The notes under the pieces were generated by a model. The model was not told where the DNA came from. It was given only the letters and a program-made list of their open reading frames with translations, and made no database searches. From Microcoleus vaginatus PCC 9802 (GTDB lineage: Bacteria > Cyanobacteriota > Cyanobacteriia > Cyanobacteriales > Microcoleaceae), in contig CP031740.1 in assembly GCA_022701275.1 (NCBI GenBank), positions 4,847,001 through 4,911,000 on the forward strand: a stretch of 64,000 nucleotides of DNA, written 5' to 3'. The first letter of the stretch is position 1, and every line of letters begins with the position of its first letter. Both the position numbers and the translations under genes were made by a program. This document shows positions 11,338-24,251 of this stretch, in pieces.

Positions 11338-11757
11338 TCAAAACCAACTAGCAACTCTCGAATCCAATTTAACTTCTTCAGGCAGGCGGTAATCTATCTT
11401 CTGATAGCTGTGCAGCACCTCGCGAATTCCAGTATGAATCAAATTTTCTATGTGCAGCAATTGCTCTGAAGAACAGCGAACCTGAACTGTTTGGTTTGAC
11501 ACACACTCGCCGGAGTCGATCGCAGTATATCTATTAGGAACTCGGCTGAGTACATAAGCAATTAAATCTTGTCGCAATCCCGAAGGCGAAAAAGCTTGTT
11601 GGTAGGGGTGCTTCGGATAAGACTCCAAGATAATTTCTACTTCCTCTGTGACTACAGCTAAGGTAATATTGACAAGATTTTTCTGCATTTTCCCCGTCCC
11701 CAAACACTCGTTAACTAATATTTTTGTGGCCGTTCTCGATCTCGTCTGATTTCTCAT
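11338..11757 (-). CDS. ComFB-like small protein (tentative)
   Basis: A soluble protein of about 139 residues. The central block, VVTEEVEIILESYP followed by LRQDLIAYVLSRVPNRYTAI, resembles the late-competence ComFB fold family (VEEEV... then ...ALNRLPxxY), members of which bind cyclic di-AMP in cyanobacteria; the assignment rests on this similarity of pattern only. The ATG at 11757 lies 5 bp after the DUF1830 stop, indicating one operon. A later ATG at 11688, preceded by GGGGACGGGGAAA, could be the true start (MQKNLVNITL) and would leave the conserved part intact. The frame upstream of 11757 overlaps DUF1830 and is not expected to be translated. Confidence 0.6.
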   Translation of the reverse strand: MRNQTRSRTATKILVNECLGTGKMQKNLVNITLAVVTEEVEIILESYPKHPYQQAFSPSGLRQDLIAYVLSRVPNRYTAIDSGECVSNQTVQVRCSSEQLLHIENLIHTGIREVLHSYQKIDYRLPEEVKLDSRVASWF

Positions 11758-11762
11758 GAATT

Positions 11763-12071
11763 TTAACCGGCTAATACCGCCAATCGTTCTTCGGTCATCA
11801 CCAGCTCGCACTCGGAACTTACCTCTTCTATAACCCGCAGCACGTAGCAGGGAATCTTGTCCGATAAAATAGCACTTGGCACCGCACCACTGTGAATTTC
11901 TAAGACTGCTTCCGCAGCAGCTTCAAACATCACTCGCTGTCCGGGAAACATCACTCTTTCAAAGTACCAATTAGGAATGTTCCCAATCCGAACCACCTGA
12001 ACTAGGTTGGTAACATTTGCGTAATAGCACAGAATCTGGTTGTTACCTTTATAAGATAGCTGATCAGACAT
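11763..12071 (-). CDS. DUF1830 domain protein
   Basis: A cyanobacterial protein of 102 residues and unknown function. The family signature is clear: ILCYYANVTNLVQVVRIGNI, then PNWYFERVMFPGQRVMFEA and AVLEIHSGAVPSAILSDKIP. It is predicted to be cytoplasmic, with a small beta-rich fold. It is the first gene of a two-gene minus-strand unit with the ComFB-like gene (5-bp gap). The ATG at 12071 starts a few residues before the conserved block. The upstream 1 kb is rich in repeats. Confidence 0.83.
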   Translation of the reverse strand: MSDQLSYKGNNQILCYYANVTNLVQVVRIGNIPNWYFERVMFPGQRVMFEAAAEAVLEIHSGAVPSAILSDKIPCYVLRVIEEVSSECELVMTEERLAVLAG

Positions 12072-13134: not shown

Positions 13135-13521
13135 TTAAAGCAACGGTTCCCAACCCAGAATTTCCGCCACTTGCTGTGCCAAACTCAAAGGATCGAAAGG
13201 CTTTGCAATCACCCCCGCTACCCCCAAATCAGCAAATTGGCTCAAATCCATCGCCTGCACCTTAGCCGTCAAGAAAATCACCGGAATCCTCCGAGTAGCC
13301 GTATTATTTTGTAGGAAACCAAACAGAGTAAGTCCGTCCATATCCGGCATCATCACATCTAACAAAATAGCGTCAGGGAGGTGAGTTTCAGCTAAAAGCA
13401 ATCCTTGGCTGCCGTCGGGCGCGCTTAGTACCGTCCAGCCACCTAAATGTTCCAGACAGGCCTGAATCACGCTGCAGAGGTTTTTTTCATCATCGATGAC
13501 CAGAATGCGCTTTGCTGACAT
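13135..13521 (-). CDS. Single-domain response regulator (CheY-like)
   Basis: A stand-alone receiver of 128 residues: acidic pocket Asp10/Asp11, phospho-acceptor Asp55 in ILLDVMMPDMDG, Thr85 in FLTAK and Lys107 in IAKPFD. There is no output domain, so it acts by protein contact or as a relay step. It lies downstream of the phytochrome kinase on the same strand, but a 421-bp gap with hairpins separates them, so cotranscription is uncertain. Cph1/Rcp1 pairs have the same kinase-then-receiver order, which makes it a candidate phytochrome partner by inference. Confidence 0.93.
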   Translation of the reverse strand: MSAKRILVIDDEKNLCSVIQACLEHLGGWTVLSAPDGSQGLLLAETHLPDAILLDVMMPDMDGLTLFGFLQNNTATRRIPVIFLTAKVQAMDLSQFADLGVAGVIAKPFDPLSLAQQVAEILGWEPLL

Positions 13522-13942
13522 AATTAAAACTCTAATTTTAAATTAATCATGGTAAACCGAAAAAAAACTTACGCACGCTGCCTCATCAACCGGGTTTCTT
13601 GACAGATATAGCAGAAGGAAGAAGCAATAAAATTAAGAGTTTCAGCACTTAAGAACGTCCTAATCGAGCGAGGTTGCTATATTTTGCCACTCACCTACTG
13701 AAACCCTGACCAGCAAAATCGGGCGTTCCATAATAGCGGGATGATTTTGATTGTTTTGTGGGATGGGCCCATGAGCCCGTCCGGTATATTTTCACCGCAG
13801 GCGGGACGCCTAACCCTACTCCCCACAAGCATCATCCTCCAATTGTGCAACGCCAAAAATCGACATATCCGCCTCCCAAAATCATCCTACCCGCGTGGGT
13901 TGCCAGGAACTTGAGCTTTCGCGGGCTCTGATCGAAGCAATC
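13522..13942. other. Intergenic region with hairpin between phytochrome and receiver genes
   Basis: A 421-bp gap. GGATGGGC at 13761-13768 and GCCCGTCC at 13775-13782 form a 7-of-8 bp stem on a 6-base loop; a second G/C-rich segment (CAGGCGGGACGCCTAA) follows near 13798. ATATAGCA near 13607 and TGCTATAT near 13674 form a wider inverted pair. These may end phytochrome transcription or belong to dispersed repeats. No open frame was seen. Confidence 0.45.
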
Positions 13943-16900
13943 TCAAACCTCCAAACTTTTTCCCCCTTCGCCTTCCAACGGTGCGGGCATTGTGAAATAG
14001 AAACTGCTTCCTTCTGAGACAACACTTTCGGCCCAAATTCTGCCGCCGTGTTGCTGTACTATGCTGCGACAGATAGCCAAACCCAAACCAGTACCTCCTT
14101 TTTGGCGGGAGTCAGAAGCATCGACCTGTTGAAACCGTCCAAAGATTGTTTCTAGTTTATCCGCAGGAATCCCCCGCCCTCTATCTTTGACTTCAAATAA
14201 AACCCGATCGCCCAAATCTTCAACCCTGACAGTTACTGTACTCCCTGGAGCCGAGAATTTAATCGCATTGCTCAACAAATTTACCAACAGTTGAACGATC
14301 CTGTCGGGGTCAGCCCAAATTTGGGCTGTTTCGGGCATAATCGACAAATCAATGTTACTTTCGGCAGCCAAAGAAAGTACAGCTTCTGCAGACTTCCGCA
14401 TCAAAACCTGGGCCTCGCACCACTGCTTGACGAGGATAACTTGGCTCGAATCGAGCCGTTCTAAGTCTAGAATATCGTTGACCAAACGCACTAACCGTTC
14501 GGTATCGCTCGAAGCGATTTCTAACATCTGTTTGGCAGTTTCCGGTTTATTTTTCAGTACCCCAGCCGCCAGCAAACCTAAAGAACCGCGAATGGAGGCA
14601 AGCGGCGTTCGCAGTTCGTGGCTGACAATCGAAATAAACTCATTTTTCATTTTTTCAATTGCCCGACTTTCTGTGATATCTGTGACTGTGCCGACGTGAC
14701 CAATCAGTTGAGATCTGTCGGAAAAAATCGGAGCTGTTTTAAGCCGACAAAACCGGATGGTTCCGTCTCGCTGGATGTGGCGGAATTCGCAGGAAAATTC
14801 CCCATCTAGCGATTGTGATTCCGACCACTTAGACAGAATTAGTTTGATGTCTTCGCGGTGAACAAACCGCATCCAGCCGTTTCCTAAAGCTGCTGTCGGT
14901 GTGAAGCCACCAATTGCTTGACAGCGAGGATTTGTATAGGTACATTTCCCCTCACTATCGATTTTGAAAATGCCCACGGGGGAACTCTCGCTCAGAGAGC
15001 GAAATAAAGCTTCGCTTTCCCGGAGTTCTGCTTGAGAGCTTTCTAGTTCTCTGGTTCGCTGCAAAACTCGCATTTCTAACCGTTCGTTGAGCTGTTGGAG
15101 GGCGGCTTCAGCAAGTTTGCGATCGCTAATATCGCGGTGCACTGATACCCAGTGGGTAAACTCACCATTTTCGTCCGCTATGGGCACAATGCTCATTTCT
15201 ACCCAAAATTCCGTCCCGTCTTTGCGGTAATTGATCGAGTCAACCCGCACCGGCTGCCAGGTTTCCAAAGCTGTCCGAATTCGATGGAGACTGGCGCGGT
15301 CTGTTTTTTGTCCTTGCAAGATGCGGGGCGTTTTGCCCACAACTTCTTCTAGCGTATAGCCGGTCATCCGCGTGAAAGCTGGGTTGACATAAAGAATTCG
15401 CGGGCCCGGTTCGTGAATCGGTTCAGCTTCGGTAATTAATACGGCATCGTTAGTGGTGGTGACTACTGATTCCAACAGGCGCAACTGTAATTCTCTAGCT
15501 TTGCGATCGGTAATTTCTCTAACTGTCCCCACCATCCGCACTGCATGGCCGGCTTCATTGTAAAAAAACTTACCTTTCCCCTCCATCCAGTGAATGCTGC
15601 CGTCGGGCCAAACCACGCGGGTTTCGTGACAGAAATCTCCTCGCTGGGCGATCGCCTGATTTATAGCATTCTCTATACTTTTTAAATCTTCTGGGTGAAT
15701 GCAAGTTGCAAAACTTTGATAAGTTCCGGCAAAAGTGCCCGGGGTCAACCCAAACAACTCTTCGTGTTCCCTCGACCAAACTAGGCGATTTTTCTGCACG
15801 TCCCAGTCCCAAAATCCAATTTTGGTAGCCGACAAAGCTAAGCTAAGCTGCTGATTGGTTTTCCGCAACTCCATGCTAGTAATAGCAACTCGAAGTTCTC
15901 GGGCTATTTCGATTTCGCACCGCTGCCAAGGCAAAGATTTTAACCTCACAGTTTCTTGCCACAAGTCAAAGGAGTTGCGAGGAGACAGCGGCCGGTTGCC
16001 ATCCGGTTTAACTTCAATTTCCCCGTCTGGTTGACCGGCCCAGTTGACAGTTTGAATTGTTTCTGGACGGAACCACAAAATGTAATAATTTTGCATCTCG
16101 GACATGGCCAGTACCAGCAAACCGCTAGCAACTTCTTTAAACTTCTCAGATGGCGGATACAGTTTTGATAGAGAATCTGTATGAAAAATATCATTATTTT
16201 TTTGAGTTTTTATCCAAGCAATTAAGCTTTCGATTTCTACCAATTCCGGGGTTTTGCCGATGGTTGTTAAATTTTCATTGGCACACACAACTCCACCGGT
16301 AGCGCCCACTAGGGTCAGCAATTCATCTGGGGATTTAAGTAAACCTTCTATAAACCAGTGTGATTGAGAAATTTTGGTGACAAATTTATGGCAATTTTCT
16401 TTTAAATAAAGTGTATATTCCCAATTTTCGCTATCTTGTTTGTAGCTGAGTTCTAGATTCACAAACTTGGCTAGCAGTTCGCAAGCCTTTCTTGTTTCGT
16501 AGCTGACATACTTTCGTGTTTGGTGGTGACACGCGATCAATCCCCAGAGTTTTTTATCTTTGATTAATGTCAAGGTCATGCTAGCACCAATGTTCATGTT
16601 TTTGAGGTATTGAACATGGCAAGGGGAAACTGCTCTCAACAAAGAGAAGCCTAGATCCAAGGGGCGACCGGTCAGCGGATTGCAGTGAGGAATGAGTTCT
16701 ACAGGCTTACAGTTAATATCGGGAATAAACCGAATTAAACTCATGGTGAACAGGTTTCTTGCCTGGGGGGGAATATCGCCAGCCGGATAGTGCAGTCCCA
16801 ATAAAGGAGCCAAACTTTTTACTTTGTCTTCGGCGACAACTTCTCCCGCACCTGTGGCATCAAATTGATAGACGATCGCTCGATCGAAACCAATCATCCT

Positions 16901-17389
16901 CCGCACTTCTTCAACTGCTGTCTGACACAGCACTTGCAGGTTTGGTGTTCTGTGGATTTTGTCTATCGGCTCTTGGACTAAATGATAAAAATTGAAAGAA
17001 TCGCTAGGTTTTGGGGAAACAGCCGACTCGAGTTCAAGAATTACTGCTGAACTAGATTGATGCAGGGTCCCCTGAAAAAAAGACTGGCGGTTTTGACTTT
17101 TGAATGATAATCTGATACCGTTAGATTGATGGCAGTCTTCAAATAAAGCTTTTTCTATAGCCTCAATTTCCTCAGTTTCGACAAATTCCTGTAAAAATTT
17201 GCCCAAAAGTTCTTCGGGATAAATGCCGATATCCTCAAAAATATTGTTACTAACTTGCAAAATTTTCAACTCAGGAGATTTCAGCACTAAAAGGATGCCA
17301 TGAGGTTGGATGGCAGCCGGGGCGTAAATTAGTTCGCCGTCGCTGTCATTGAGATTGTCTGTGTCGGAGGGCAATACCATTGCTTTCAT
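13943..17389 (-). CDS. Cph1-type phytochrome sensor histidine kinase with extra PAS domains
   Basis: A bilin-binding red/far-red sensor kinase of 1,148 residues. PAS (about 18-120, AAIQPHGILLVL) leads to GAF (about 135-320) with YPAGDIPPQAR (Asp205-Ile-Pro) and RAVSPCHVQYLKNMNIG, where Cys257-His258 occupies the Cph1 bilin-lyase position. PHY follows (about 325-515, with LSPRNSFDLW, the PRxSF tongue motif). There is no N-terminal biliverdin Cys, so phycocyanobilin is predicted. Three PAS domains come next (about 525-645, 650-780, 805-905); the second is LOV-like but has GKTPRILQG, lacking the Cys. The kinase core is [13 protein letters not shown] (His924), LLVNLLSNAIKFS, DRGRGIPAD and GGTGLGLAI. 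The start ATG at 17389 follows an AGAGAAG-like site. Its neighbours on the same strand are the RcaC-like regulator upstream and a receiver downstream. Confidence 0.95.
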   Translation of the reverse strand: MKAMVLPSDTDNLNDSDGELIYAPAAIQPHGILLVLKSPELKILQVSNNIFEDIGIYPEELLGKFLQEFVETEEIEAIEKALFEDCHQSNGIRLSFKSQNRQSFFQGTLHQSSSAVILELESAVSPKPSDSFNFYHLVQEPIDKIHRTPNLQVLCQTAVEEVRRMIGFDRAIVYQFDATGAGEVVAEDKVKSLAPLLGLHYPAGDIPPQARNLFTMSLIRFIPDINCKPVELIPHCNPLTGRPLDLGFSLLRAVSPCHVQYLKNMNIGASMTLTLIKDKKLWGLIACHHQTRKYVSYETRKACELLAKFVNLELSYKQDSENWEYTLYLKENCHKFVTKISQSHWFIEGLLKSPDELLTLVGATGGVVCANENLTTIGKTPELVEIESLIAWIKTQKNNDIFHTDSLSKLYPPSEKFKEVASGLLVLAMSEMQNYYILWFRPETIQTVNWAGQPDGEIEVKPDGNRPLSPRNSFDLWQETVRLKSLPWQRCEIEIARELRVAITSMELRKTNQQLSLALSATKIGFWDWDVQKNRLVWSREHEELFGLTPGTFAGTYQSFATCIHPEDLKSIENAINQAIAQRGDFCHETRVVWPDGSIHWMEGKGKFFYNEAGHAVRMVGTVREITDRKARELQLRLLESVVTTTNDAVLITEAEPIHEPGPRILYVNPAFTRMTGYTLEEVVGKTPRILQGQKTDRASLHRIRTALETWQPVRVDSINYRKDGTEFWVEMSIVPIADENGEFTHWVSVHRDISDRKLAEAALQQLNERLEMRVLQRTRELESSQAELRESEALFRSLSESSPVGIFKIDSEGKCTYTNPRCQAIGGFTPTAALGNGWMRFVHREDIKLILSKWSESQSLDGEFSCEFRHIQRDGTIRFCRLKTAPIFSDRSQLIGHVGTVTDITESRAIEKMKNEFISIVSHELRTPLASIRGSLGLLAAGVLKNKPETAKQMLEIASSDTERLVRLVNDILDLERLDSSQVILVKQWCEAQVLMRKSAEAVLSLAAESNIDLSIMPETAQIWADPDRIVQLLVNLLSNAIKFSAPGSTVTVRVEDLGDRVLFEVKDRGRGIPADKLETIFGRFQQVDASDSRQKGGTGLGLAICRSIVQQHGGRIWAESVVSEGSSFYFTMPAPLEGEGGKSLEV

Positions 17390-17409
17390 CTGATTAATAC
17401 TTCTCTAAA

Positions 17410-17529
17410 TTAGCCTGTGTTCTTGATCAGCGGGCCAGCATCAATCAAAAGCACCGCGTCGGAATCACACAATCTAACAATCCCTAGTCTGGCTAAGGCT
17501 TCCTGATTTGTTTCGTACACGCACTGCAT
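17410..17529 (-). CDS. Candidate small protein (39 aa) between regulator and phytochrome genes
   Basis: ATG at 17529, preceded at good distance by TAGGAG, opens a 39-codon frame ending 20 bp before the phytochrome start. The protein begins MQCVYETNQEALARLGIVRL and ends in a hydrophobic, acidic stretch (SDAVLLIDAGPLIKNTG). It is soluble-looking, with two Cys. It could be a real small protein, a leader peptide coupling translation to the phytochrome gene, or a remnant of a larger gene. No family was recognised. Support is the ribosome-binding site, position and tight spacing only. Confidence 0.4.
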   Translation of the reverse strand: MQCVYETNQEALARLGIVRLCDSDAVLLIDAGPLIKNTG

Positions 17530-17658
17530 ATTTGCTCCTAGTTATCCCATTAAAAAAAAAGAATACAACTGTAGGTACGTGCTCGAAACCCATATCTCAT
17601 AAGTCATTCCCAGTTATTCAATTCTTTAATTCTTTAATTCTTTAATTCTAAAATGGGA

Positions 17659-19581
17659 TTAGCGCTGTGCCTGAGCCAGTCTGTTTCTGAGTTGAGTTCG
17701 CTCCAAACGATTCAAGAGGCGAGCAATTAATTCCGGTTTCACGATCGGCTTGTTCACGTAGTCGTCAGCACCTGCGACAAACATTTGGCGCACTGTTTCC
17801 GATTCGGAATGAGCTGTCAAAAATAGCACTGGGAGCTTGCTCCAGCGCAAATCGTTGCGAACTGCCAAACACAGCTCGATACCGCTGTAACCGGGCATCT
17901 CCACATCTAAAATTAGCAAATCCGGACAAGTCGTTTCGAGTACCTCCCAGAACTTTTCGGGATCGTCCAAGGTTGTTACTTGAAATCCCCAAGGTTGTAG
18001 AATCACTTGCAGTGCAGCCAATAGATGCACGTCATCGTCTACCACCATAACTTTAGCTTCAGCAGGGCCAGTCTGGTCGATTAGTTGGGCGACTGCTTTG
18101 AGTATATCTGCTGGGGGCATAGATTTGTGTAAAAAGCCCGAAGCTCCCAAACGAGCAACTTCTATTCGATCGCTCAATTGATTGTGTCCGCTAAAAACCA
18201 TCACCGGAATTTCGGGCTTTTCACTGCGGAGTTCGGCTAAGAGAGAAAGTCCGTTTTCCTGAGATCGGGAAAATGTCAAATCCAGCAAAATCGCGTCGGG
18301 AGGCTGTTGAGAAATCGCATTTCTTGCCGCTTGCGGAGAGTTGGCAACTTCTATCTGGAAGCCGGAACCGGATGCTAATGTTTTCAGTTGATCGCTCCCA
18401 AAAGTATCATCATCAACAATCAGCATTCGGCGCTTTTGGGAAACCGCAGGAACCAAATCGCCTTCTGGTTCGGGCGACGGGTGATCGAATATCTGTTTGA
18501 GCTTATGCAGAAATCCCTCAATCTGCTGAGCCGTCCCCGGTTTCAAGATGTTTTCAGCCTTGAACAAATGTTCTATCTGGCGTGCAAACTCCGAACCTTT
18601 CGGCAGGCCTAACGTTCCCAAAGAACCGACTAATTTGTGAGCTTGAGCCTGGGCTTCCTCGCGCACTTCGCCCTCCAAGCTTCCGTTTTTCAGTTGAGCG
18701 ATTGCGCGATCAAATATCGCCACCTTTTCTATAAAATTAGCTTTTAAATTGCCCCGCATTTGGGCAATCGCATTCAAGACTTTGAGACGGCGTTCGTCTT
18801 TGTTTAATTCCTGGCTCGACCCGCTGGATTCAGTCGATAAAGTCTCTTGAGTTTTAGCAGTTTCTGCCGTTTCCTGCCCAACTTGTTGGCTCTCAATCTC
18901 CTCCGGCAGACTTTTGAGCCGATAGCCCAATCCGTACACGGTTTCCACTAAATCTACTGTCATCCCGGCTGCTTTCAGCTTCTGCCGCAGCCCCTTGATG
19001 TGAGCGGTAACGGCTTCTTCTTGAGGAAATTCGCCGGCCGACCAAATGCGATCGAGGATGGCGCTGCGACTGAAAATGCGCCGGGGATTTCTCAGGAAAA
19101 GTTCTAGCAAATTGTACTCTTTGGGAGTCAGGTGCAGCACTTTTTCGGCATAAGTTACTTCCGTAGTGTCCGGGTTGACTTGCAGTTTTTCCCATGTCAA
19201 ATTTGTACTCGACAAAGTTGTCTTACCCCGGCGCAGCAAAGCCCGAATTCGAGCGATTAATTCTTCGAGATTAAAGGGTTTGACCACATAATCGTCTGCA
19301 CCCGCCTCTAAACCTTGCACTCGATCGTTGCTGCTATCTAGCGCTGTCAGCAGTAAAATCGGCATTTGGCAGCCGGACGATCGCAATTTTCGACACAAAC
19401 TAATGCCGTCGAGTTTAGGAATCAGCACATCCAAAACAATCAGGTCGTAATCGTATGCCTGCACCAAATGCAACGCTGTTTCACCGTCTGCGGCCGCATT
19501 CACATTGTAATTGTGAGAGTTCAGCGCTTGAGTCAGCAAACTGACTGTAACTGTGTCATCTTCTACCAGCAGGATTTTCAT
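17659..19581 (-). CDS. RcaC-like response regulator: REC-wHTH-HPt-REC-REC
   Basis: A DNA-binding phosphorelay regulator of 640 residues. REC1 (1-120) has Asp51 and Lys101. An OmpR/PhoB winged helix follows (about 125-225; LTPKEYNLLELFLRNP, VYGLGYRL). An HPt domain (about 270-365) has His315 in AHKLVGSLGTLGL. REC2 (about 385-505) has Asp434 and Lys486, and REC3 (about 510-628) has Asp559 and Lys611. All three receivers keep the acceptor Asp and the conserved Lys. This order recalls RcaC, the chromatic-acclimation regulator of Fremyella, with an extra receiver; orthology is inferred. The start at 19581 is chosen over the in-frame ATG at 19602 because CAGGTGA sits 6 bp upstream. It lies upstream of the phytochrome gene on the same strand. 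Confidence 0.92.
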   Translation of the reverse strand: MKILLVEDDTVTVSLLTQALNSHNYNVNAAADGETALHLVQAYDYDLIVLDVLIPKLDGISLCRKLRSSGCQMPILLLTALDSSNDRVQGLEAGADDYVVKPFNLEELIARIRALLRRGKTTLSSTNLTWEKLQVNPDTTEVTYAEKVLHLTPKEYNLLELFLRNPRRIFSRSAILDRIWSAGEFPQEEAVTAHIKGLRQKLKAAGMTVDLVETVYGLGYRLKSLPEEIESQQVGQETAETAKTQETLSTESSGSSQELNKDERRLKVLNAIAQMRGNLKANFIEKVAIFDRAIAQLKNGSLEGEVREEAQAQAHKLVGSLGTLGLPKGSEFARQIEHLFKAENILKPGTAQQIEGFLHKLKQIFDHPSPEPEGDLVPAVSQKRRMLIVDDDTFGSDQLKTLASGSGFQIEVANSPQAARNAISQQPPDAILLDLTFSRSQENGLSLLAELRSEKPEIPVMVFSGHNQLSDRIEVARLGASGFLHKSMPPADILKAVAQLIDQTGPAEAKVMVVDDDVHLLAALQVILQPWGFQVTTLDDPEKFWEVLETTCPDLLILDVEMPGYSGIELCLAVRNDLRWSKLPVLFLTAHSESETVRQMFVAGADDYVNKPIVKPELIARLLNRLERTQLRNRLAQAQR

Positions 19582-19783
19582 AAACGTCACCTGTCCTTCC
19601 AACTATTTTTGGAATTTTTTATCGGTTTTTGGGGCTAATTAAATAGCCTTTTTACAACTGATTTTAAAAATCCCCACCTTCAGTATAACAAATAGTATTC
19701 TTGAAATAGAATAATGGTAAATTATTATTTTACTTTTATTTTTTTTTCCTCTCCAAATACCTCATTAGATTCTGGCTGGGATT

Positions 19784-21070
19784 TTATGGTTTTTTGGACT
19801 TCAGCGCCTGCTGAATTTTTTGAATCAGATATTGCGAGGAATCTTGATGTTTAACTAAGTCTTTCAACTCGGAAACCGCTACTTCGGCGTGTTCTCTCTC
19901 TCGAACTAAAGAATCAGCGGTAACATTTTTTATGACTCTCAAAGGTTCTTGGATAGCGGTCAATGAATTGAAATTTTTTTCCGCTATTAATTCTTCCAAC
20001 TCTAACAGAGCCATTTCTGCGCGATCGATCTTGATCGTCACGGATTTAGCCACATTAGCACCCGCTCTTGCTGCCTCCGTGAGTTCGTGAACTCGAAGTT
20101 TAAACCGACTGGCAATTTGCTCCATTTGAGTCCCCAATTCAAAAGTTTTACTTGCCAGTCTGCCAATTTCTAGACTCACTTTGCTCAGACCGCTGGGCTG
20201 ACTTCCCATTTGATTGGTAACTACAGCTACCTGTACTGCTAAATGCCTGACTTGTTCGATCGCCTCCCGGATGGTTCGGGAAGTGCGGTTAACCGTTTCT
20301 AAATCATTAGCTATTGCTTTGCCCACGCCCAAAATTTTATCTGTATTGTTGCAAATAGAATTAGCACCTTGAAAAGTAGCTTGAAATGCTTGGCGACCTT
20401 CCGAAGAAATCAGTTTCGCAATCCTCACAAATCGCTGATTCATTTGAGCAATTTCTTCAGCTTGTTTAACCAGTGCCACTTGCTGGGAACTAGGATTGGT
20501 ATGCAATTTTTCGGTTTGACGTTGTTGAAATTTTAAAAGCTCATTACATTCGTGAACCTTAGCCTGTTCTTGTTGAAGTAGCGCCAAATACTTGTGTCTT
20601 TCTACTCGGTATCTTTGAATAACTTTGTTAGCTTGCGCTAAAATTCTCGACTGGGCAATTACCAGAGTTTGAACGTCCAAAAGGCGGTGGCTTTGGTTTT
20701 CCATTACCACAATAATCGGTTCATAAATCAAGTCTTTGTGCCTGTTGAAAGAGGCTTGCACGGCATCGTCAACTTTCCAGTTTTCCGAAAGCACCAAAGG
20801 CGGAATTCTAATAAAATCTAATAAGGCTCGAATCGGGTGTGACCCGTAAAGTTTTACGCGATCGGGAAAACTCATTTGCTCTCGAAATTTGACGCGAGAA
20901 ATCATGCCCAATACTTGTGATTCATGAGTAATAATGACTCCCGGCAGGTCTGGTTCTTGCTCAAATCTTTCAGCCACTACCTGTCCTGGAGTTGCAGCGC
21001 TCACTTGGAAGTCGTGACACGGCAGATGTCCGATCGTGAAATCGGGGGTGAGTTGAGTTGGATTGCTCAT
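19784..21070 (-). CDS. CBS-like sensor with long coiled-coil signalling region
   Basis: A 428-residue cytoplasmic protein. Residues 1-140 form a CBS-pair-like module (PGVIITHESQVLGMISRVKF at about 43, then LVLSENWKVDDAVQASFNRH and YEPIIVVMENQSHRLLDVQT), which may bind a nucleotide. Residues 145-215 are a coiled coil (HKYLALLQQEQAKVHECNEL), and 215-428 a long helical region similar in texture to methyl-accepting signalling domains (RTSRTIREAIEQVRHLAVQV, IGRLASKTFELGTQMEQIAS). There is no membrane segment, kinase or cyclase domain, so it may scaffold or relay a signal. It is the first gene in the minus-strand photosensory cluster, 202 bp upstream of the RcaC-like gene. Function is unknown. Confidence 0.75.
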   Translation of the reverse strand: MSNPTQLTPDFTIGHLPCHDFQVSAATPGQVVAERFEQEPDLPGVIITHESQVLGMISRVKFREQMSFPDRVKLYGSHPIRALLDFIRIPPLVLSENWKVDDAVQASFNRHKDLIYEPIIVVMENQSHRLLDVQTLVIAQSRILAQANKVIQRYRVERHKYLALLQQEQAKVHECNELLKFQQRQTEKLHTNPSSQQVALVKQAEEIAQMNQRFVRIAKLISSEGRQAFQATFQGANSICNNTDKILGVGKAIANDLETVNRTSRTIREAIEQVRHLAVQVAVVTNQMGSQPSGLSKVSLEIGRLASKTFELGTQMEQIASRFKLRVHELTEAARAGANVAKSVTIKIDRAEMALLELEELIAEKNFNSLTAIQEPLRVIKNVTADSLVREREHAEVAVSELKDLVKHQDSSQYLIQKIQQALKSKKP

Positions 21071-21611: not shown

Positions 21612-24251
21612 TTGGATCGGCCGCGCCTGCTATGTCCCAGGTTCCGTCTTTACAACAGGGGCATTCATATTTTGTTCTTTAAAACAACCGGGAAAATATC
21701 TAGATTGAAACCAAAAACCTTAAATAGGACTTTGCCACTAGCAACCTTTGAGGCTGTTTACCAGTTGTTACAGCAAATGGCTGAAATCCCAGGGGCGATT
21801 TGGCTGACCGACGATGCGATCGCTGATTCTCAAAATCGGGAAAATTCGTCGGAAAGGTTTGCAGCAGTGATATCAGATCATTTTAGCGCGCTGCTGCGGG
21901 GCAATCTATTAGATGAGTTCGCAACAAACGGACACAAGCACAGCGAAAAAAATCTCCATTCGCAATTGAATGTGCAGTTGACTTTCGACCCCGGGGCGAT
22001 CGCCCATTTCCTGTCTCCCCTCGCAGACAAACTGGCAGAAATAACCCCCGCACCCTCGTGGCAAAAAGACGTTCGCGCCCTCAAACAAGGAATTAAAAAT
22101 ATACAGCCTAACTCGGCCCTTATTCAAAGCGAATTCACCCTAAATTTGCTGGATATTCTAGCTGCCAATGCCAGCCCAAATAATCGCCTGCACCTACACA
22201 GCCAAACAGAAATAGAGGGAAAATCAGCGCCCAAAGTTATAGATCCAGAAACGCTACAGAGCCAGATTGCCGAAGCCGTCAATCAATTACAAATTGCCAG
22301 TCCCTGCATTTCATTTTGTCAGCCAGTGGAAGATGCTTTGCAGCAGCAGCTCGAACAAGAGCGACTTTTGAATCAGGTGACAACTCAAATCCGCCAGAGT
22401 TTGGAATTGCCTGTAATTTTGTCAAAAGCAGTCGAGCGAGTGCGAGAGTTTTTGGAGGTCGATCGCCTGTTAATCTATCAATTTGAAAAAGTGCCAGCGC
22501 CCCACAATGGTGAGTTAGCTAAAGAAATACCTGCGGCGGTTTCTGGGTCTGGCGAAATCCAAAAAATTTCCGGGTCTTACTTGTATTTAGGTCGCGTCAC
22601 CTACGAAGCTTTAGCCAACGATTCTATCTCGTCTGTACTGAATTTTAGTGAAGGCGCGCAGTGTTTTACCAATGGAGTCATTGACAGAGAGAAATATCGC
22701 AAAGGCTTGGCTTTGTGCGTCGCGGATGTGGAAACAACTTACTCTTCGCAGCCTTGTTTTTTAGAGTTGATGCGGCGGGCGAAGGTGCGCGCGAAGTTGC
22801 TAGTGCCGATCGTAGTTCAAGACGACTTGTGGGGCCTGCTAATTGCCCACCAGTGTACTTTTCGGGAGTGGGAAGAAAGCAAAAAAACTTTTTTGCGGCA
22901 AATAGCAGAACATTTGGCGATCGCCATTTACCAAGCCGAACTTTATGCACAAGTCCAGCAGCAAAAGCGCACCTCAGAACAACGCGTAATAGAGCGCACG
23001 CGAGAACTGCGCGATGCACTGGTCGCCGCCCAGTCTGCCAGCCTCGCCAAGAGCGAGTTTTTGGCAGCTATGAGCCACGAATTGCGGACTCCCCTCACCT
23101 GCGTCATCGGCATTTCCGACACGCTACTGCGGTGGTCTTACGGCAAAGTTGGCAGCAAAGAAGTGCCAGTGCAAAAGCAGCGGCAGTACCTGCAAACTAT
23201 CCGAGACAGCGGCGACCACTTATTAGAATTAATTAACGATATTTTAGATTTATCGCAAGTAGAAGCGGGAAAAGCAGTATTAAAAATTAGTGAATTTTCA
23301 CTTTCTAAATTAGCTTCTCAGAGCCTGCACGCTCTCAAAGAAAAAGCTGCGACTAAAGGCGTGGAACTGCTGCAAGAACAGCGGATAAAACGAGAGTGCG
23401 ATCGCTTTATCGCTGACCCGCGCCGCTTGAGACAAATTCTCTTCAATCTTTTAGGCAATGCGATTAAATTTACTCCCGAAGGTGGGCGAGTCATCCTGCG
23501 AGTTTGGGTGACAGAAGATAAAAATCGAACGCCTGCAGTGCGGCAGCCCGGTACTGCACCTGCTGGCAGTACCGCTGTTTTTCAAATCAAAGATACCGGA
23601 ATTGGAATTCCCGAAAATCAGCGATCGCTTTTGTTTCAAAAATTCCAGCAGTTGGATTCCCCCTACTGCCGCGAATACGGCGGCACCGGTCTGGGATTGG
23701 CCTTAACTAAACAGTTAGTAGAGCTTCACGGCGGCGCGATCGAAGTCAACTCTAAAGTTGATGTCGGCTCTACTTTTACCGTTTTTATACCCATCCAAAC
23801 TCTAGCCAAAGATGAATCCACAAAATTTACCTATGAAAACTCTAATTCATCTTTACCGCTGCATTATTCCTCGCGGGGCAGCCTCGTACTCGTGGAAGAA
23901 GATGAAGAAACTGCCATGCTGATTTGCGATATCCTGACAGCCGCAGGACTGCAAGTGGTGTGGATGATTGAAGGTTCGGCGGCGGTGGAACAAATTGAAC
24001 TTTTGCAGCCAAATGCTGTGATTGTCGATATGCGTTTGCCCGGTATGAATGGCTGCGAAATAATTTACCAACTGCGCCAAAAACCCGCTACTGAAAATAT
24101 CAAGATTCTCGCTTTAAGCGTTAATGAAATTCCGCCCGATCAGATATCTTTCGTGACGGCGGGAGCTAACGATTGTTTGGCTAAACCGATTCACCCGGAG
24201 CAATTGCTGGACAAAATTATTTCTTTAATGGCCGGGATTGGTAATGGGTAA
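21612..24251 (+). CDS. GAF-domain hybrid histidine kinase (GAF-HisKA-HATPase-REC)
   Basis: A soluble hybrid kinase of up to 879 residues. An N-terminal helical region (about 40-240, starting [16 protein letters not shown]) precedes a phytochrome-type GAF (about 262-445), HisKA with [11 protein letters not shown] (His489), HATPase ([31 protein letters not shown]) and a C-terminal receiver (about 750-875, acceptor Asp in [11 protein letters not shown]). The GAF has [20 protein letters not shown]: Cys382 sits where bilin-binding GAFs have Cys-His, but His is replaced by Phe. The frame opens with a TTG at 21612; a TTG at 21705 or an ATG at 21777 are other starts, so the first 30-55 residues are uncertain. 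It is separate from the minus-strand phytochrome cluster. Confidence 0.9.

Follow-up and report, generated by a model that had tools for sequence, protein, structure and literature searches.

Cyanobacterial light phosphorelays of the RcaC/RfpB type are already known, and both RcaE-RcaF-RcaC and RfpA-RfpC-RfpB are described as relays that run from a kinase through a lone receiver to a regulator. RcaC is given three receivers in PMC4390838, and RfpB is given two, there and in PMC4658448; neither of these papers uses the term HPt. The FaRLiP operon has the order rfpB-rfpA-rfpC (PMC9415938). FaRLiP apart, no phytochrome beside an RcaC-type regulator was found in a literature search that covered mostly sources outside the subscription journals. 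Here we describe a cyanobacterial locus with a relay of this type, whose front end appears to have been exchanged separately for a phytochrome.

Gene content of the locus

The window (the whole stretch of DNA analysed, 64,000 nucleotides) comes from a cyanobacterial genome of 6.70 Mb in one contig. On its minus strand, the ORF list and Pfam searches gave the regulator (REC-wHTH-HPt-REC-REC) and the phytochrome kinase, with a CBS-like protein of 428 aa on one side and a lone receiver on the other (Table 1), and these searches and residue reading bore out all the genes and key residues of the set that a first-pass annotation of this DNA had proposed. The CBS gene lies 202 nt from the regulator ATG, the regulator 269 nt from the phytochrome, and the phytochrome 421 nt from the lone receiver, a spacing (200-420 nt) that is loose for a single operon or transcript. 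The small ORF that had been counted as a member of the set does exist, but it is probably no gene, since it was matched in 5 of the 27 congener loci, was full-length in one frame in L044 only, and was broken across two frames in L053 and L061; as a conserved gene it was rejected on these grounds. The ComFB-like gene (28 bits) is preceded by an overlapping DUF1830 gene (11763-12071).

Table 1. Features of the locus, with positions counted from the first nucleotide of the window.
Feature	Position	Strand	Basis
CBS pair + long helical hairpin protein (CBScc), 428 aa	19784..21070	-	ORF, AlphaFold model
RcaC-type regulator REC-wHTH-HPt-REC-REC, 640 aa from ATG	17659..19581	-	Pfam, residues, trees
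Phospho-acceptor Asp51, receiver 1 of regulator	19429..19431	-	Position computed from ATG start
HPt His315 of regulator	18637..18639	-	Residue reading
Asp434, middle receiver of regulator; absent in 12/12 RcaC compared	18280..18282	-	Residue comparison
Asp559, last receiver of regulator	17905..17907	-	Residue comparison
39-codon ORF, probably no gene	17410..17529	-	Congener comparison
Phytochrome kinase PAS2-GAF-PHY-PAS-PAS-PAS-HisKA-HATPase, 1148 aa	13943..17389	-	Pfam, kinase-domain trees, photosensor tree
Bilin-binding Cys257 (SPCH) of phytochrome	16619..16621	-	Read in sequence
Lone receiver, 128 aa, position of RcaF/RfpC	13135..13521	-	Pfam; co-divergence of the three partners
Divergent ComFB-like protein, downstream of lone receiver	11338..11811	-	Pfam PF10719; true start probably later
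Divergent hybrid kinase GAF-HisKA-HATPase-REC, conserved neighbour	21612..24251	+	Pfam, congener loci

Pfam recognized three receivers, Trans_reg_C and HPt in the regulator, whose start is most likely the ATG at 19581 (640 aa) rather than the TTG at 19602. D51, H315, D434 and D559 are all present, and the acid-pocket Asp, the Thr/Ser and the Lys are complete in all three receivers, confirming the REC-wHTH-HPt-REC-REC layout with its three acceptor Asp and HPt His. The genome holds one full-length match to the regulator, and a search of solved structures with the regulator as query returned receiver and OmpR-type relatives. A plasmid search gave 15 records, and none of the genes among the entries listed was named rcaC.

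By Pfam, the phytochrome has PAS_2, GAF and PHY domains, three PAS stretches, HisKA and HATPase; with these photosensory domains and the bilin Cys257, it belongs to the knotted (PAS-GAF-PHY) phytochromes. The previous label of a Cph1-type phytochrome kinase with Cys257 holds for the photosensor, which like that of Cph1-type phytochromes is PAS-GAF-PHY with a GAF Cys and, as read by eye, a PRxSF tongue motif. It fails beyond the photosensor: Cph1 is not known to have a series of PAS domains ahead of its kinase, whereas the window phytochrome has three PAS before a kinase of another lineage. Two further phytochromes with a nearly complete PHY match are encoded in the genome. The lone receiver was confirmed by Pfam (128 aa), with a phospho-Asp, counted by eye, at D55.

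The CBS-like protein matched no family of Pfam or NCBIfam at E 0.001. In its AlphaFold model (pLDDT 78, pTM 0.41), residues ~8-148 match CBS pairs (AcuB, CBS-CP12) at Z ~13 over 120-130 residues, so the predicted fold supports a CBS pair and the CBS-like identity given at first pass, despite the absent family match. Residues ~190-375 of the model match chemoreceptor cytoplasmic hairpins (best Foldseek match 2ch7, E 3e-5), with an rmsd of 27.6 over the whole, and helical matches of such Z are common; a Pfam search for a chemoreceptor signalling domain gave no family at E 0.001, and the helical match may be merely a common arrangement. At E 0.001, 212 of 388 genomes contain relatives of the protein, matched over the full length in the best rows and over the N-terminal part in many. 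Since no CBS protein of this kind occurs in the printed neighbourhoods of regulators outside the genus, the CBS-regulator link is seen in the genus only.

Conservation in congeners

Twenty-eight congeners were compared, 27 of them with an orthologous regulator (in pieces in G003), while G024 holds only a 45% paralogue. The CBS gene is upstream of the regulator in 27/27 loci, the phytochrome is downstream of it in 23/25 (two further contigs end too soon to tell), and the lone receiver follows the phytochrome in 17/21 testable loci and was not found in the fetched stretch of the other four, so that the gene order on which the first-pass proposal depended is conserved. The phytochrome is in two ORFs in L050 and cut by a contig end in L063, both counted among the 23. 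The gaps differ among congeners: 34-35 nt separate phytochrome and receiver in L052, L065 and L066, where the ComFB-like gene comes after another 221-258 nt. Phytochrome and lone receiver are both absent from the place downstream of the regulator in G006, and in G017 an ETR1_N (ethylene-receptor-like)-PAS-histidine kinase (L058:7300-10092) stands there instead of the phytochrome, adjoining the regulator and followed by another receiver (148 aa); the regulator can thus persist without a phytochrome of the window type. Direct repeats in the promoters across the genus were not convincing, being found upstream of the CBS gene in 23/28 regions (17.0 in shuffles), of the regulator in 13/27 (13.9), of the phytochrome in 15/23 (12.0) and of the lone receiver in 10/16 (8.3).

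The regulator family and its sensors

The regulator family was matched at E 1e-105 or better in 165 of 388 class genomes. Outside the orthologous cluster, 92 neighbourhoods were collected, of which 91 contain a full-length regulator ORF and were counted (L172 has no such ORF). These 91 loci were drawn from the best matches to the window regulator rather than at random and include four congener paralogues (L073, L076, L078, L079); the short loci L006-L042 and L083-L109, and L186, which was in the wrong place, are not part of the counts. Within 6 kb and on the same strand, 71 loci have a kinase (fused to the regulator at 10), 68 a lone receiver, 64 both, and 4 a PHY protein, all of the latter in genus g78. 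The partner sensors vary in family (PAS, GAF, cyanobacteriochrome-like, hybrid), where "cyanobacteriochrome-like" is called from a sequence motif. Regulator, kinase and lone receiver are therefore the usual set of this family and the sensor is variable, and the kinase fusions (10/91) are a natural hint that regulator and kinase work together.

Several loci deserve separate mention. The regulators fused C-terminally to a histidine kinase are those of L119-L122, L125, L135, L139, L140, L166 and L181. Some congeners have another module of the RcaC type, served by a cyanobacteriochrome-like kinase (L078, L079). In g78, a regulator has a canonical phytochrome in its vicinity, and in L225 and L226 that phytochrome has its own receiver beside it. 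On contig 24 of G261 (L259, L261), a phytochrome-GAF-PAS kinase is divergent from a family regulator (41%); in this phytochrome the usual GAF Cys is replaced by Ile, and there is a Cys near the N terminus, at the place where bacteriophytochromes have theirs.

The closest module outside the genus is that of G038 (L070), which has the gene order cyanobacteriochrome-like kinase, lone receiver, ComFB-like gene, regulator. By identity, all three partners have their nearest relative outside the genus in G038 (55-56% for the regulator, 71% for the kinase domain and 66% for the lone receiver), while by score one other lone receiver is slightly higher. The two modules differ in gene order and in the sensor, which in G038 is not a phytochrome and has, by eye, a hydrophobic N terminus before its GAF. 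By a sequence motif this GAF is of the cyanobacteriochrome type, and RcaE was among its solved-structure matches.

In kinase-domain trees, the window phytochrome kinase grouped with the RcaC-module kinases at 98/91 (18 rows) and at 95/88 (9 rows, G038 included), away from the canonical phytochrome kinases, RfpA and RcaE; the canonical phytochrome kinases sat on very long branches that were flagged by the tree tool, and the L001 kinase filled only 29% of the columns in this tree. An earlier kinase tree gave the same neighbourhood with a support of 84. The photosensor is 45% identical to a canonical phytochrome of its own genome, set against the 71% of the kinase domain to G038, and in the photosensor tree it is far from the RfpA photosensor. 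Co-divergence was calculated over 72 sets including the window (r 0.56 for regulator-kinase, 0.575 for regulator-receiver and 0.83 for kinase-receiver), and 0 of 999 permutations were as high for each pair, with shared species history remaining in the permutations; common descent of the species contributes to these correlations. As judged from the sequences, the best reading would be that an existing relay of the RcaC type exchanged its former sensor for the photosensor of a phytochrome, independently of RfpA.

A probable phytochrome-driven phosphorelay

Taken together, the locus is probably a red/far-red phosphorelay of the RcaC type, running from phytochrome to lone receiver to regulator, in which the phytochrome is a chimera with the kinase of an RcaC module. 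This reading is favoured by what is directly observed, namely the gene content, the phospho-residues and the bilin Cys, the co-divergence of the partners, the chimera in the trees with the placement of its kinase domain, and the conserved linkage, and also by the kinase fusions; the chromophore, the direction of phosphotransfer and the regulation of transcription are what we infer. Weighing against it are the loose gene spacing, the congeners in which the lone receiver or the phytochrome is missing at this place, the species history that the permutations retain, the long branches of the canonical phytochrome kinases and the supports of 86-93 in the regulator tree. Light would alter the bilin-bound phytochrome (Cys257) and thereby set its kinase activity, and phosphate would pass from the kinase His to D55 of the lone receiver, on to H315 in the HPt of the regulator and then to D51 of receiver 1, which would control the wHTH at the regulator's own target promoters. 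The other two receivers, with D434 and D559, probably take up phosphate as additional acceptors or as sinks. The chimera would have arisen when a canonical PAS-GAF-PHY photosensor took the place of an earlier sensor, most likely a cyanobacteriochrome as in G038, on the kinase of an RcaC-type module.

It is possible, if unlikely, that the locus integrates light with a nucleotide signal and, by way of the CBS and ComFB-like proteins, acts on surface behaviour such as pili, motility or competence, a proposal that overlaps with the phosphorelay just described and concerns its output. The predicted CBS pair with a chemoreceptor-like hairpin would fit such a role, as would the ComFB-like gene, which is present in 20/27 congener loci and within 6 kb on the same strand in 9/91 other loci, G038 included; according to PMC12313861, the ComFB of Synechocystis is a c-di-AMP binder with an effect on pili. 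However, the ComFB-like protein here is divergent, and the CBS-regulator link is confined to the genus. The proximity of ComFB in g78 means less, since each g78 genome has 9-11 ComFB matches.

Distinctly unlikely is the alternative that the phytochrome signals mainly elsewhere and that another kinase, such as the adjoining divergent hybrid kinase, drives the regulator. The hybrid kinase is indeed also a conserved neighbour, and the regulator and CBS gene persist without the phytochrome in G006 and G017, but the kinase, receiver and regulator of the locus co-diverge and share one nearest outside relative.

Relation to RcaC and RfpB

To compare the regulator with its described counterparts, an RcaE-like GAF query was used to collect 21 named RcaE loci, 12 of which encode RcaC at full length next to RcaE; in 11 of these, an ORF for a lone receiver separates the two. 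All 12 RcaC gave the five-domain layout in phmmer searches with the window domains, and L201 has this layout in split form. In the two RcaC run on Pfam, two receivers, wHTH and HPt passed and the middle receiver failed, and its phospho-Asp is present in 0/12. The FaRLiP set comprised eight RfpA-like loci. For six of them an additional psaA/psaB pair lies no more than 6 kb away; the locus of G276 has a psaA/psaB fragment nearby where the contig stops, and that of G249 is on another contig than the extra pair. A full-length RfpB was found in six loci, five with five domains and one (L214) with four recognized; RfpB is split in L219, and none was found in the fetched stretch of L213. HPt was detected in 4/4 RfpB run on Pfam, and the middle-receiver Asp is kept in 1/6. 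By its residues and domains, RfpB seems to have an HPt, and its middle receiver seems degenerate in most cases. The "additional receiver" that had been read as setting this regulator apart is thus not a distinction, since RcaC and RfpB share the layout and three receivers are ascribed to RcaC in PMC4390838. What really distinguishes the two is the middle receiver, which to judge by its residues has remained catalytically intact in the window regulator but is degenerate in RcaC.

In a quick tree of 117 rows, which included 7 of the 26 full-length genus regulators, the 12 RcaC formed one group (98) and the six RfpB grouped with one other row (99), the two groups joining with one further row at 93. 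The window genus was placed elsewhere, with L070, L112 and L114 (86) and then with g78 and others (89, 93), and the deeper branches around its clade have supports of 86-93 only. AU tests, run on 43 rows picked after the 117-row tree had been seen, rejected the window regulator and RcaC as one clade (p 0.00015) and the window regulator with RfpB and L177 (p 0.00098). RcaC orthology was ruled out by the tree and the first of these tests, and RfpB orthology by the second; in the phylogeny against RcaC that the first-pass annotation proposed, the regulator thus lies outside the RcaC clade, and the proposed pairing of an RcaC-like regulator with a true phytochrome stands for the architecture and the phytochrome but not for the clade.

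It is accordingly very improbable that the regulator is orthologous to RcaC and uses L-boxes to control the colour acclimation of phycobilisomes. In favour of it, the five-domain layout is shared, and D51 and the HPt His lie at nearly the same positions in both proteins; a spacing fingerprint of RcaC gave no match, and a literature search for RcaC residue numbers found none. A scan of the 6.7 Mb genome with the paired half-site TTGCACA suggested by the first-pass annotation gave 54 matches with up to two mismatches versus 10 for the reversed pattern (five times as frequent), an excess that speaks for L-box control. None of the 54 is exact, 4 having one mismatch and 50 having two, and no match with up to two mismatches lies in the window, which speaks against it. 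The RcaE partner is also absent, the kinase domain is outside the RcaE clade, and the middle receiver is intact. A FaRLiP-type RfpB-RfpA-RfpC system is scarcely credible, as the shared order regulator-phytochrome-lone receiver is outweighed by the rejected grouping with RfpB, by a knotted PAS-GAF-PHY photosensor distant from that of RfpA, and by the single psaA and single psaB in the 6.70 Mb genome, on which alone FaRLiP in this genome was ruled out.

Comparison with known systems

The locus is real and conserved, and a sensor swap is its best-supported history: in this natural exchange, the photosensor would have changed on a kinase, receiver and regulator that stayed in place. The proposal of an undescribed phytochrome pathway is upheld by the linkage conserved across the genus and is limited by FaRLiP, whose rfpB-rfpA-rfpC has the same order and regulator layout. 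RcaC and RfpB, usually described apart, are placed by our comparison in one widespread regulator family with exchangeable sensors, and since RfpB seems to carry an HPt, far-red acclimation may run through the same steps as chromatic acclimation (RcaE-RcaF-RcaC). A broader and tentative reading, on balance rather unlikely, is that RcaC-type relays are a general cyanobacterial chassis to which a phytochrome photosensor was joined at least two separate times, here with an intact middle receiver and serving a light response that is neither phycobilisome nor far-red remodelling, perhaps a surface behaviour under the gate of a CBS nucleotide sensor. The two joinings would be RfpA and, in place of a cyanobacteriochrome, the window genus. 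The phytochrome-regulator pair of G261 may be a third. By its residues, the chassis in the window keeps the intact middle receiver that is lost in RcaC.

Compared with RcaE-RcaF-RcaC, the locus has the same components of kinase, lone receiver and five-domain regulator, but RcaE is a cyanobacteriochrome in the gene order E-F-C and the kinase here is a phytochrome in the order regulator-phytochrome-lone receiver, and RcaC belongs to a different clade and has a degenerate middle receiver in 12/12 cases. With RfpB-RfpA-RfpC the locus shares the gene order, a phytochrome-class kinase, the lone receiver and, by our own annotation, the REC-wHTH-HPt-REC-REC regulator. It differs in that RfpA is knotless with a divergent PHY, as described in the literature and seen in our annotation, and the window phytochrome is knotted; in that RfpB has lost the middle-receiver Asp in 5/6 cases; and in that regulator and photosensor both fall in clades separate from those of RfpB and RfpA.
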